A DNA stretch of 64,000 nucleotides from contig NZ_CP018911.1 of NCBI RefSeq assembly GCF_004000605.1, positions 868,001 through 932,000 on the forward strand, given 5' to 3'. The notes under the pieces were generated by a model, which made no database searches, was not told the origin of the DNA, and was given only the letters and a program-made list of their open reading frames with translations. A program made the translations under genes and the position numbers. Origin of the DNA: Glycocaulis alkaliphilus. Its GTDB lineage: Bacteria; Pseudomonadota; Alphaproteobacteria; Caulobacterales; Maricaulaceae. Within the stretch, counting starts at the first letter, position 1. The number at the start of each line of letters is the position of its first letter. Positions 3,835 to 56,094 of this stretch are shown here, in pieces.

Positions 3835-4314
3835 ATGAGTTTGACGGTCGAGATGCCGGCGCCGGATGCGCTCCGGGCCGCCAATATCCATCCCGAGACC
3901 GGGTTGGCGACAGATTACCTCAACCATTTCAATGAAGTGGTGATGCTGCTCGACATGCTGCCCGGCATGCCCGATTGCGCGGACGACGTGCTTGGCTGGG
4001 AGCCGTGCAGCTATGAGGCCCATTTTGAGCGTACCGGCTATAGCGGGCGCGAGACGGTGATCGCCGCCTGGCATGCGGCGCCGCGCGCCGTGCGGGCCCA
4101 TTTCGAAACTCTGGTCTCGGCGCTGGACGACATCATTGCCGACCTGCAGGAGCGCGTGCGCGCGGGTGATTTCAGCGGCGCGGCTGAGGCGGCGCGCAGC
4201 GAGGCTGAGCCCCTGCTGGCGGCAGCGCGTGCGGCAGTCCACGGCCATGTGACGGGTGAGATTGATCCGGACCAGAATGCGGGTCAGGCGAGTGTGGATG
4301 CGTTGTTTGGTTAG
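3835..4314 (+). CDS. Conserved-looking hypothetical protein, 159 aa
   Basis: I do not recognise this family. The product is soluble and acidic with no signal peptide or membrane segment. Its N-terminal half has the feature-rich stretch ATDYLNHFNEVVMLLDMLPG and a DDVLGWEPCSYEAHFERTGY segment; the C-terminal half is mostly helix-forming, alanine- and glutamate-rich. The gene stands alone between the divergent plsC set and the convergent symporter. The TAG stop coincides with the first bases of the 332-bp repeat, so the original C-terminus may have been preserved or slightly altered by the insertion. Codon use is typical of neighbours, which supports a real gene. Confidence 0.7.
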   Translation: MSLTVEMPAPDALRAANIHPETGLATDYLNHFNEVVMLLDMLPGMPDCADDVLGWEPCSYEAHFERTGYSGRETVIAAWHAAPRAVRAHFETLVSALDDIIADLQERVRAGDFSGAAEAARSEAEPLLAAARAAVHGHVTGEIDPDQNAGQASVDALFG

Positions 4315-4645
4315 GGCCTGTCCTCATAAAGGTTTCGGGCCCCGGAGCGAACTTTGGTTCGCTCCGACTCTTTGCTAAGTGAGGCAAGCGGCTTGCAGCC
4401 GCTTGCCGGGGCGTAGCGGATTTGGTTCCTGACAAGGAAAGACGACCGCCGTGGAGTATTCCTCCACAAGGGCGGCTCGACGCGGTCAGGGGTGAAATCC
4501 GCCGCGCCTCGAAGAGGTATGGCGAAAATCGCCCACTCTTGCGTCGCACTCCCTCGAAAGGGGAATACCCTTCCATCGGGCCTGCTCCTGATACTGAACG
4601 ATTTTCGCACATATCACGCTCCAAACCCTTTATGAGGACAGGCCC
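4314..4645. mobile_element. 332-bp structured repeat with terminal inverted repeats, copy 1 (MITE-like)
   Basis: The ends are near-perfect inverted repeats of about 21 bp beginning GGGCCTGTCCTCATAAAG. A second copy of exactly the same length lies at 55123-55454, about 90% identical by eye. No transposase is encoded. The interior folds into perfect hairpins: a 9-bp stem at 4344-4365, a 9-bp stem at 4384-4406 and a 6-bp stem at 4451-4467. The flanks are TTAG on the left (4311-4314) and CTAG on the right (4645-4648), as expected for a short duplicated YTAG target. The left TAG is the stop of the 159-aa gene and the right one is the stop of the convergent symporter. A non-autonomous derivative of an IS5-like element is my best guess. 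Confidence 0.8.
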
Positions 4646-6021
4646 TAGGCTCGGGACTGCTGCTGGACTGCCATGCTGGCCAGTCCCACGGCCACATAGC
4701 CCGCCAGAGCGGCGAGCATCGAGAACAGGAAGGCGCCGGGTATCTCGAACACGAAATCACCCAGCCAGATAGCCAGAAGCCCGCTGGCCAGGGCGGCCAG
4801 CGCCGACCATTCTCCGCCAAACTGGCTGCGTATCCCGATCAGCAGCGAGACCAGCAGGCCTGCCGATCCCAGCGACGAGGCCAGCTCTACCAGCCCGTAA
4901 ATCGTCTCGCCTGTTGTAGCGACAATGTAGGCCATCACGCCCGCAACGACTGTAAAGCCACGCGCGGCCAGCAGTTTCTCCTCTGGCGAGGCTTTGGTGC
5001 GCACCCGGCTGTAGAGGTTCTCCGTGGCCAGGCCGGAGACGGCCAGAAGCGCGGAATCCACCGTCGACAGCACGGCAGAGAACAGCGCTCCGGCAAACAC
5101 CACGAAGAGGGCGCTCGGCAGAAGGTCCATGGCGAGGTTGGGCAGGAAGAGATCGCCTGCCTCCGGGTCAAAGCCGAGGCCGGGGCCGACAAGCCCGAAC
5201 AGGACCGGGAAGAAGCCGACAACCAGGTAGAGCCCGCCCGCCATCAGCCCGCCGCGCACGGCGATCTTTGCCGATTTCGAGCCGAGGAAGCGCGCGATCA
5301 TCTCCTGCGCCACGATCGATCCCAGAATCGGAATGGCGAAGGCGTCGAGGCGCTCCAGCCAGCTTTCGCCTGGTGCGATGAGCACAAGCTGTGACGGGTC
5401 GATCAGGGCCATGGCTTCGTCAAACCCGCCTGCCCGTCCGAACAGCGCGAAGGTGAGGATGATGAGGCCGGTCAGCACCACCGCACTCTGGAGAATGTCG
5501 GTCACGACATCGCCCAGCAGGCCGCCCAGCAGCGTGTAGCAGATGACGAGGAGGCTGGCCCCCACCAGCGCCCATCCCACCGGCAAATCGCTGGCCACGG
5601 CAATGATGGAGGCGAGCGCCAGTAATTGCGCCGCCGCCCAGATGATGGAGGTGGGGATGGAGACGCAGGCAGAGGCAATTTCAGCGCGCGGGCCGAAACG
5701 GTCCCGGAAGAAATCGGCAAGCGTGAGATAGCCTTTTGCGCGCAACTGCCCGGCGACGAACAGCGCCGCCACGATCAGGCAGATGGCATAACCCACTGGC
5801 TCAGCGCGCGCGCCTGAGAGCCCCTCATCGGCGATGGTGGCTGTGGAGCCCATAATGGTCTCGCCGCCAAACCAGGTGGCAAACACCGAAATGCCGACCG
5901 CCCAGAAGCCCAGCCTGCGGCCCGCCACCAGATAGTCGGTATGCGTGCTCATCTTGCGCGATGCCCACAGGGCAATGCCAAGCTGGATAAGGATGTACAG
6001 GATGAGCGCGGCGAGAATCAT
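4645..6021 (-). CDS. Sodium:solute symporter family protein
   Basis: A 458-residue, very hydrophobic inner-membrane protein with about 12-13 transmembrane segments, of the SSS (solute:sodium symporter) family. Family-like features are YLVAGRRLGFWAVGISVFATWFGGET near residue 30, LTLADFFRDRFGPR near 100 and STVDSALLAVSG in the second half. It would import a small solute with sodium, but the substrate cannot be read from sequence. Its stop codon lies in the terminal YTAG of the 332-bp repeat, so the element separates it from the convergent 159-aa gene. It stands alone, running away from the AidB-like gene upstream. Confidence 0.88.
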   Translation of the reverse strand: MILAALILYILIQLGIALWASRKMSTHTDYLVAGRRLGFWAVGISVFATWFGGETIMGSTATIADEGLSGARAEPVGYAICLIVAALFVAGQLRAKGYLTLADFFRDRFGPRAEIASACVSIPTSIIWAAAQLLALASIIAVASDLPVGWALVGASLLVICYTLLGGLLGDVVTDILQSAVVLTGLIILTFALFGRAGGFDEAMALIDPSQLVLIAPGESWLERLDAFAIPILGSIVAQEMIARFLGSKSAKIAVRGGLMAGGLYLVVGFFPVLFGLVGPGLGFDPEAGDLFLPNLAMDLLPSALFVVFAGALFSAVLSTVDSALLAVSGLATENLYSRVRTKASPEEKLLAARGFTVVAGVMAYIVATTGETIYGLVELASSLGSAGLLVSLLIGIRSQFGGEWSALAALASGLLAIWLGDFVFEIPGAFLFSMLAALAGYVAVGLASMAVQQQSRA

Positions 6022-42230: not shown

Positions 42231-42442
42231 GGCCCGTGCGCACGCTGCAAGGCATGTGTGCGGGGGAGTGAGTTTTGTGGAGTGGCGGCGCTAAAGCCCG
42301 GTTGACGGGTATGGCATCGGCACTATAAGAAGCGCCCTTCGCTCTGAGGGGCCGGCCACGAGGCAAGGCGCGCGCAATGTGTGTCGCGCCCTGTACGTGT
42401 CGGTTTCTTTTGCGCGCGGCATATTGAACAGGGAGTAGCGTT

Positions 42443-42811
42443 GTGGCCCGCATAGCTGGCGTCAACATTCCGACGAACAAGCGCGTAACGATCGCGCTTC
42501 GCTATATTCACGGTATCGGCCCGGCCATGGCGCGGGAGATCTGTGAGAAGGTAGGCATTCCGTCTGAAAAACGGGTTAACCAGCTTACCGATGCTGAAGT
42601 GCTTCAGATCCGCGAAACGATCGATGCTGGCTATATGGTCGAAGGTGACCTGCGCCGCGACACGGCCGTGAACGTCAAGCGTCTCATGGACCTTGGCTGC
42701 TATCGCGGCCTGCGCCATCGCCGCGGCCTGCCCGTGCGCGGTCAGCGTACCCACACCAATGCCAGGACCCGTAAAGGTCCGGCCAAGCCGATTGCCGGCA
42801 AGAAGAAGTAA
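42443..42811 (+). CDS. rpsM: Ribosomal protein uS13
   Basis: A 122-residue head protein at subunit bridge B1. [25 protein letters not shown] and the basic C-terminus [26 protein letters not shown] are canonical. GTG start with SD GGGAG. It begins the alpha set after a 212-bp spacer that probably holds a promoter. rpmJ (L36), present between secY and rpsM in enterobacteria, is absent here. Confidence 0.97.
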
Positions 42812-54620: not shown

Positions 54621-54670
54621 ACTTCCTTCATCGGCCGCAACGATGCTTGGCGCAGATTTGCACCGGGATA

Positions 54671-55123
54671 ATGGCCATGAAGCCTGTTCAGCTCTTTCTT
54701 GCGAGCCTTCTCGCGCTGACCGCCGCTGCCGTGGCGCAGGCCCAGTCGCGCGGGTTTGAGGTGCCAGCCGACCATACCGCGCTGATTCGCCTGCCGGGCG
54801 ATGCCGCCGCCATTGTAATTGGTAATCCCAATATAGCCGACGCGACGCTCTATGATGCGCGTACCATCTTCGTGACGGGCCGTGTGTTCGGCCGAACCAA
54901 CATGATCGCGCTCGATGATAATGGCCGGGTGCTCTACACCTCGGACCTGCTGGTCACCCAGTCGGGCCGGGGCAGCGTCCAGGTTTTCCGCAATACCGAA
55001 CGCCACAGTTATGTGTGTGCGCCGGAATGCCAGGCCGTGCCAGTGATCGGGGATGCATCGGACTGGTTCTCCGGCGTGTCGGGCCAGCAGGCCAACCGTA
55101 CGGCGGTTGGTGGCGGGCGTTAG
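54671..55123 (+). CDS. Secretin N-terminal-domain protein (pilus assembly, CpaC N-domain-like)
   Basis: A ~150-residue exported protein. The signal peptide (LFLASLLALTAAAVAQAQ) leads to ~80 residues FEVPADHTALIRLPGDAAAIVIGNPNIADATLYDARTIFVTGRVFGRTNMIALDDNGR, the N0/N1-like domain that precedes the secretin in CpaC/RcpA. A short Cys-bearing tail follows (CAPECQ). It resembles the N-terminal part of CpaC at 58343. I took ATG at MAMKPVQLF; a TTG lies eight codons upstream. Its TAG stop coincides with the start of repeat copy 2. Confidence 0.8.
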   Translation: MAMKPVQLFLASLLALTAAAVAQAQSRGFEVPADHTALIRLPGDAAAIVIGNPNIADATLYDARTIFVTGRVFGRTNMIALDDNGRVLYTSDLLVTQSGRGSVQVFRNTERHSYVCAPECQAVPVIGDASDWFSGVSGQQANRTAVGGGR

Positions 55124-55454
55124 GGCCTGTACTCATAAAGGTTTCGGGCCCCGGAGCGAACTTTGGTTCGCTCCGACTCTTTGCTAAGTGAGGCAAGCGG
55201 CTTGCAGTCGCTTGCCGGGGCGTAGCGGATTTGGTGCCTGACAAGGAGAGACGGCCGCCGTGGAGCACTCCTCCACAAGGCCGGCTCGACGCCGTCAGGG
55301 AGAAAATCCGCCGCGCTCGATAAGAGTATGGCGAAAATCGCCCACTATTACGTCGCAGCCCCTCGAAAGGGGGATGCCCTTCCTTGGGGCCTGCTCCTGA
55401 TATTGAACGATTTTCGCGCATATCACGCTCCAAACCCTTTGTGAGGACAGGCCC
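55123..55454. mobile_element. 332-bp structured repeat, copy 2 (MITE-like)
   Basis: Same length, orientation and termini as copy 1 at 4314-4645. Changes keep the hairpins: in the second stem a C-to-T change turns a G-C into a G-T pair, and in the third hairpin both changes are in the loop. The left flank is TTAG (55120-55123), again supplying the stop of the upstream gene; the right flank CTCG does not match, so the target duplication is imperfect or lost. It separates the secretin-N-domain gene from the TadE-like gene. Confidence 0.8.
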
Positions 55455-55548: not shown

Positions 55549-56094
55549 GTGTTTCTGAAGAGTCCGGTTAAGCGCCTCGCCAGGCGGATGGCAGACGACA
55601 AGAAGGGCGCGACGGCCGTCGAGTTCGCAATGGTTGCGCTGCCATTCCTTGTTCTGCTGGGCGCCATTATCGAAACCGCCCTCATCTTTTTTGCCGGCAT
55701 GATGATGGAGCACGGGCTGTCGCAATCGGCCCGCGAGATACGCACCGGACAGCTCCAGCTGGCAGGCGGCTCGCCAGAGGCGTTCAGAAACTCTGTCTGC
55801 AGCCGCTCGGCGGGTTTGCTGCGGTGTGAGCGTTTACGCATTGATGTGCGCACGCTGGAAAGCTTTGGCGGCGCGACCTCCCTGCCAGTCGACGAAAACG
55901 GGATGGTCGATGTCGGCGAGATCAGCTTCCTGCCCGGTAATCCGGGCGAGATAGTGCTGGTGCGGGCCTATTATGACTGGCCGCTTATCGTCCCCAATCT
56001 GGGGCTGGGGCTTGCGAACATGGCGGGCAATCGCCGGCTTCTGACGGCGACCGCCGCGTTCCGCAACGAGCCGTTCCAGGAGGCGCTGCAATGA
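55549..56094 (+). CDS. TadE-like pseudopilin
   Basis: A 181-residue protein. A short basic leader ends in DDKKGATAVEFAMVALPFLVLLGAIIETALIFF, the prepilin-like processing region with the conserved Glu at +5 and one membrane helix; the rest is periplasmic with a Cys pair (CSRSAGLLRCE). TadE proteins are processed by the CpaA/TadV peptidase and help Flp pilus assembly. GTG start with SD GGGGAG; the open frame extends upstream into the repeat, which I treat as non-coding. Overlaps the next gene by ATGA. Confidence 0.85.
   Translation: MFLKSPVKRLARRMADDKKGATAVEFAMVALPFLVLLGAIIETALIFFAGMMMEHGLSQSAREIRTGQLQLAGGSPEAFRNSVCSRSAGLLRCERLRIDVRTLESFGGATSLPVDENGMVDVGEISFLPGNPGEIVLVRAYYDWPLIVPNLGLGLANMAGNRRLLTATAAFRNEPFQEALQ

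Follow-up and report, generated by a model that had tools for sequence, protein, structure and literature searches.

A putative non-autonomous element of Glycocaulis and its relatives with an inverted pair of hairpin modules, exchangeable ends and frequent placement at stop codons

The window (the whole stretch of 64,000 nucleotides of DNA of Glycocaulis alkaliphilus, a member of the Maricaulaceae, that was analysed) carries two copies of a 332-bp repeat, which is classed here from its sequence as a candidate non-autonomous element (MITE): it is short, has terminal inverted repeats, a TA duplication and empty sites in relatives, and contains no transposase gene. In the explanation that we propose, this element has a two-arm core that is conserved and ends that can be exchanged, and is probably moved in trans by IS711-like (DUF4096 plus DDE) transposases. 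Compared to an earlier reading of the window made from the letters alone (hereafter the sequence-only reading), the inverted pair of hairpin modules and the interchangeable ends are new.

Copy 1 (positions 4314 to 4645, + strand) and copy 2 (55123 to 55454, + strand) had the lengths and coordinates given in the sequence-only reading, and they aligned over the whole length with 92% identity (E 8e-134). The ~21-bp inverted ends described there were likewise recovered, the two arms matching at 20/21 positions in copy 1 and at 18/21 in copy 2; the left terminal inverted repeat of copy 1, GGGCCTGTCCTCATAAAGG, was located at 4314 to 4332 (+), and the right one at 4627 to 4645 (-). The ORF lists of both copies showed no transposase, as had been stated, and the interior was indeed rich in hairpins: the + strand of copy 1 folded at -180.7 kcal/mol vs -121.8 (sd 5.1) for shuffles. 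Between its ends, copy 1 was composed of (i) two extra hairpins (4344 to 4365 and 4383 to 4407, together 4344 to 4407, +), found only in the 332-bp form; (ii) the first copy of a hairpin module (arm II, 4409 to 4505, sense on +), matched at 4406 to 4505 by R1, a covariance model built on the right arm, with 36.2 bits and E 8.9e-9; (iii) a small hairpin without strand (4506 to 4518), separating arm II from arm III; and (iv) the second copy of the module (arm III, 4519 to 4617, sense on -), which scored 110.5 bits with R1 and was itself in the training set. In copy 2, arm II (55218 to 55314, +) was placed by alignment alone and went unreported by R1 at E<=1, and arm III (55328 to 55426, -) was found by R1 and was also in the training set. 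The genome search that the sequence-only reading had proposed showed that more than two copies exist: the window's chromosome (3.02 Mb) had five elements, the two in the window and three more, and the genome also had one mini-element, L014 (G000:C1:2671953). The 332-bp form was a minority: in a set of 25 copies drawn from the genus plus one neighbouring genome (G012), 5 had the two extra hairpins, and most other copies were ~262-270 bp.

The interior of the element proved to be a single ~100-nt hairpin present twice, in inverted orientation; its stems covaried strongly, and bases in its loops were conserved (AGGAG..CGACG). Alignment A2 (24 copies) contained 83 consensus pairs, 38 of them with at least one sequence altered on both sides, and in its outer stem the paired positions changed together nearly everywhere. 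R1 also detected left arms, inverted, and R2 (a model of the left arm) detected right arms. Applied to 80 loci chosen from matches, R1 found an arm or two at E<=1e-7 in 78 of them, 99 arms in all. In the alignment of these 99 arms (A6), which was fitted to R1 and thereby leans towards the model's pairs and G-U, 30/31 pairs changed on both sides, 92.6% of the cells paired, the covariation score was 0.742 vs <=0.128 for slid structures, and the sense reading had 184 G-U vs 48 A-C (one mostly G-U pair omitted). In the model-free alignment of the Glycocaulis group, the left arm (II) was strand-biased (G-U 24 vs A-C 5), and the right arm (III) was without strand bias (G-U 8 vs A-C 10). The antisense reading of an arm also scored with R1, by hairpin shape alone (23.7-27.9 bits), and it reached up to 30.8 bits in the window, where arm II of copy 1 scored 36.2 bits and that of copy 2 went unreported; the relation of arm to arm is therefore weak in the window itself and draws its support from other genomes. 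Profiles based on sequence only connected the two arms weakly.

The distribution of the module was wide: R1 matched 30/137 genomes of the family (8/19 genera) at E<=0.001 and 35/398 genomes sampled from the order (14/59 genera) at E<=1e-4, the window's genome being included in both counts. Rfam 15 at its gathering score gave no match in either window copy, and a permissive Rfam search of four loci gave three matches (E 0.014-0.4), all to unrelated eukaryotic or viral families and all outside the elements. Elsewhere in the window, an Alpha operon ribosome binding site (Rfam RF00140) was reported at 42379 to 42475 (+), slightly over the gathering score. The module was not found in 17 loci bearing insertion sequences, where the best match (E 0.34) lay outside the insertion sequence and L187 was an insertion-sequence end alone. 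A separate locus, L223 (G158:C6), had a single module with its own inverted repeats and TA borders (~130 bp), possibly a one-arm form.

Two readings of this core were weighed. We lean towards a role as RNA, favoured because the loop bases are conserved and the inverted pair gives a sense copy from either side: the core probably acts as RNA, read-through from either neighbour meeting one sense module first, and the most likely putative role is that of a stable, harmless 3' structure for read-through transcripts. The other reading, possible although short of probable, is a plain MITE, the interior of which folds as an old, decayed inverted repeat with no RNA function, its arms being kept matched via quasi-palindrome correction in replication. 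It would account for good folding, since long inverted repeats fold well regardless of use, as well as for the existence of mini-elements of ~25-70 bp, which are expected from between-arm deletions; the outer stem without strand bias (G-U 13, A-C 11) and the scoring of antisense arms by R1 also agree with it. It is opposed by the conservation of the unpaired stretches AGGAG, CAAGG, and CGACG over the 99 arms, by the 867/3023 cells changed on both sides in these arms with inner stems covarying like the ends, and by the finding that one model, R1, matches two non-overlapping inverted arms in 21/80 loci, both often at 45-58 bits.

The ends of the element were sought at 114 places, of which 99 gave ends and 15 none, and 87 elements were kept after leaving out nine loci judged mis-bounded by eye, one element of <180 bp, contig-edge cases, and arms below 11/16. 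These counts include two places set at a wrong position of their locus: L215, which was among the loci left out as mis-bounded, and L226, where the true place showed no ends. Among these 87 elements, the ~18-bp ends fell into 25 types around one core (complete linkage at 5 of 18). The two arms matched at 16.8/18 positions within a copy and at 8.4 between end types, the within-copy match being partly by construction, in that the end finder accepts an element only if its arms are complementary and a TA borders at least one of them. Under single linkage (4 of 18) the ends collapsed to 7 groups, and this near-total merging means that the ends form a partly continuous spectrum. Core and end identities disagreed in both directions: (i) copies L032 and L075 of G003 had a core identity of 0.90 and an end identity of 0.38, and (ii) L077(-) of G003 and L034 of G002 had an end identity of 1.0 at the compared positions and a core identity of 0.62. 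This two-way disagreement suggests that ends were swapped between elements rather than drifting slowly. Long and short core forms were each found with two end types (L001, L032, L020, and L075). Judged by their sequences, the ends appear to be borrowed from several insertion-sequence lineages.

Several related arrangements were observed around these ends. L077 of G003 contained two elements with different end types (1047-1312 and 1643-1909), 330 bp apart. Locus L215 (G031:C53) contained, near 1095-1192, clean 16/16 ends GGGTCTGAACCCTAGTAGG, i.e., a further copy, probably of another end type, outside the counts given here. Mini-elements that were nearly ends alone were found at L014, L030, L113, L184, L189, L192, and L281, and they are probably products of deletion between arms; L030, the only one scored for its flanks, had stops of long ORFs on both sides. 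Like ends around another hairpin core, i.e., one end set with several cores, were seen in L278-L280, L282, and L283 (G157 and G042) and in L096 (G056), these elements being 161-163, 289, and ~138 bp.

As for possible partners, searches with PF01609 and PF13340 showed DUF4096-bearing insertion sequences in 8/25 chosen genomes, examples of which also had the DDE domain. The candidate partners were 806-870 bp long and had a DUF4096 part plus a DDE part, which were in two reading frames in L185 and L069. Ends of GG type could be set for 18/30 insertion-sequence loci returned, and the end comparison used 11 of these plus L185 (12 in total), with L301 and L308 left out for their AGAG-type ends. Over the 25 end types, the mean best match to insertion-sequence ends was 12.7/18 vs 11.6 (sd 0.17) for column shuffles (0/2000), and with 7 single-linkage representatives 9/1000 column shuffles reached the observed match. 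The closest matches, each 17/18, were GGGTCCAGACTCATTCAG with L296, GGGTCAGGACCTATTAAA with L305, and GGTCATACACTCATAAAC with L294, followed by matches of 16/18 with L293 and L294; at the other extreme, 8/25 end types reached <=10/18. In G003, an insertion sequence (L317) was present alongside an element copy (L041) that has similar ends.

An insertion sequence with the same ends as the repeat had been named by the sequence-only reading as something to look for, and similar-ended ones were indeed present in the genus and the family, the exact end type of the window copies being unmatched among them: its best match was 13/18, with L298 of G001. PF01609 (DDE_Tnp_1) and PF13340 (DUF4096) had no match in the window's genome, and because no such insertion sequence is present there, the window's copies may be stranded without a matching partner. 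When the genus and the family were searched for an autonomous partner with exactly the window's ends, the matches examined proved to be copies of the element, ends standing alone or in mini form, isolated sites of a chance-like kind, and one other element, L096. Family-wide searches with alternative end types gave mostly two-mismatch matches near the control rate for the first type, insertion sequences and more elements for the second, and more elements for the third. By eye, GACTC (GANTC, the CcrM site) was noted at one end only of the insertion sequences L291, L294-L296, L298, L304, L305, L317, and L185, with a counterpart such as GAACCC, TACCC, or GACCT at the other end; a coupling of transposition with the cell cycle is conceivable for them.

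The borders of the window copies were refined by comparison with their neighbouring genes and with empty sites in relatives, as the sequence-only reading had suggested, and empty CTAG sites were found for both copies. Copy 1 is flanked by TA duplications (4312-4313 and 4646-4647) and lies between a gene for a 159-aa protein with no Pfam family (3835 to 4314, +), the stop TAG of which (4312-4314) ends on the first base of the copy, and a sodium:solute symporter family gene (4645 to 6021, -), the stop TAG of which takes in the last base of the copy. In L047, from a Glycocaulis MAG that is a sister genome, this site is empty and is a single CTAG formed by two overlapping stops of the same convergent pair (the genes for the 159-aa protein and the symporter); the symporter protein was 96% identical in L044 and 77% identical in L047. 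Copy 1 occupies the same site, between both genes, in the window (L001) and in G003 (L026). Copy 2 follows a gene for a pilus formation N-terminal domain (T2SS-T3SS_pil_N) protein (54647 to 55123, +), the stop TAG of which ends on its first base; its left TA (55121-55122) is kept, its right TA is lost (CCC|TCGA) with no adjoining stop, and a gene for a TadE-like protein (55549 to 56094, +) lies downstream. The corresponding site in G003 (L341) is an empty CTAG lying between the same two genes, pilus to its left and TadE to its right. All three protein-coding flanks named earlier thus end in TAG, the TA of each stop belonging to the flank and the G being the outermost base of the element; the earlier placement of the border at an outermost YTAG stands as to the adjoining stops, with the border itself corrected to the TA.

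The proposal of a non-autonomous element targeting YTAG was borne out for its non-autonomous nature and for a target preference, and the target was redefined as YTAR with TA duplicated. TA flanked both sides in 62/87 elements, and 54 of these 62 had YTAR (CTAG 20, TTAG 15, CTAA 15, and TTAA 4; others 8). TAA stops were therefore also used as targets, turning into TAG. With ORFs counted mechanically on joined flanks rather than taken from annotated genes, 34/53 YTAR insertion sites began the stop of an ORF >=80 codons long, vs 65/756 of the remaining YTAR sites in these flanks; for stops on both strands, the counts were 15/53 and 5/756, respectively. The excess was seen both in flanks of >58% G+C (22/28 insertions on stops vs 35/140 other YTAR sites) and in flanks below 58% G+C (12/25 vs 30/616).

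The idea that the target occurs mainly at stop codons did not hold, as 32/96 YTAR sites in the window (elements included) were stops; CTAG was observed 24 times there vs 219 expected from base composition (two elements included). Rarity of YTAR in coding sequence explains part of the stop bias; since YTAR sites are not mainly stops, target rarity alone is insufficient, and the elimination of harmful insertions is probably a further contributor. The excess at stops, above all at those common to opposing genes, fits the removal of harmful insertions; an extra targeting signal is a possibility. It could also be held that the repeat is a resident regulatory or terminator element, i.e., a bidirectional 3' end under host selection rather than a mobile parasite, which would suit the 15/34 stop-codon sites with stops on both strands and the retention of copy 1 by two species at one shared site; this reading is improbable in view of the TA duplications, the empty sites of copy 1 in L047 and of copy 2 in G003, and a copy 1 with no T run and a single weak terminator-like match near the shuffled rate (1 vs mean 0.5). 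In copy 1, neither the promoter scan nor the terminator scan exceeded chance.

In the mechanism preferred here, that of an element moved in trans, a transposase would recognise the ends, insert the element at YTAR, and duplicate the TA. A stop starting at the target TA, whether TAG or TAA, would be turned into TAG because the element begins with G, and convergent genes with a common site would both retain their last residue; insertions at other places would mostly be removed by selection. The core would be kept while the ends are exchanged, probably via recombination between elements having the core in common, so that one core can ride several insertion-sequence lineages. A fuller version of this account, which we put forward tentatively and rate at somewhat under an even chance, regards the core as a selfish unit: a new structured-RNA family built as an inverted pair with one sense copy per strand, persisting across the order by swapping ends to fit whichever IS711-like transposases are available, using stops, chiefly convergent ones, as safe sites, and being transcribed within host mRNAs. 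A conserved core without trace in the scanned insertion-sequence loci retains its structure between ends that are similar to those of several insertion sequences, and insertion into a target with which stop codons begin would be near-silent for two genes together. If the hairpin works as RNA, a new structured module has been added to host 3' ends; if it does not, the element offers a clear case for asking how repeat arms change together.

No description of this repeat or of Glycocaulis MITEs was found in a literature search limited to open-licence papers. MITEs are usually viewed as descending from a single insertion sequence and as having a single set of ends. IS711/IS6501 of Brucella belongs to the IS427 group of the IS5 family. 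According to a review, insertion sequences are the main source of MITEs. The element was compared by description with five known systems. IS711 (842 bp) is described as having two overlapping ORFs, duplicating TA within YTAR, and having experimentally shown transposition (PMC2266754 and PMC3163539); the element shares with it the TA in YTAR, and the candidate partners have DUF4096 plus DDE parts, but IS711 encodes its own transposase, while the element encodes none. The palindromic repeats Bru-RS1 and Bru-RS2 of Brucella are likewise linked to IS711, but their description reports them as insertion hot spots of IS711. The intergenic repeats of Caulobacter and Brucella known as CIR (PMC2229807), structurally the nearest of the published repeats consulted, resemble the element in being alphaproteobacterial and intergenic and in having two structured arms with a linker and terminal TA, but membership in these CcrM-associated repeats is very unlikely, because CIR as described are ~110 bp, bear GANTC, and have no 5'-3' closing stem, whereas the element is mostly 262-332 bp with a closing stem, and GANTC was found in the core of only 11/89 copies (the 89 copies resulting from a looser filter). 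RUP of Streptococcus pneumoniae, outlined in the same source (PMC2229807), is similarly non-autonomous and TA-targeting with ends resembling a resident insertion sequence, but it is 107 bp long, has IS630-Spn1 as its partner, and in that outline shows no inverted pair of hairpin modules. Finally, the Tn3-derived miniature elements (TIME; PMC4133298) are described as 262-bp, non-autonomous, moved in trans, and giving rise to mosaic derivatives, in all of which they parallel the element, and they differ from it in having Tn3-family ends.
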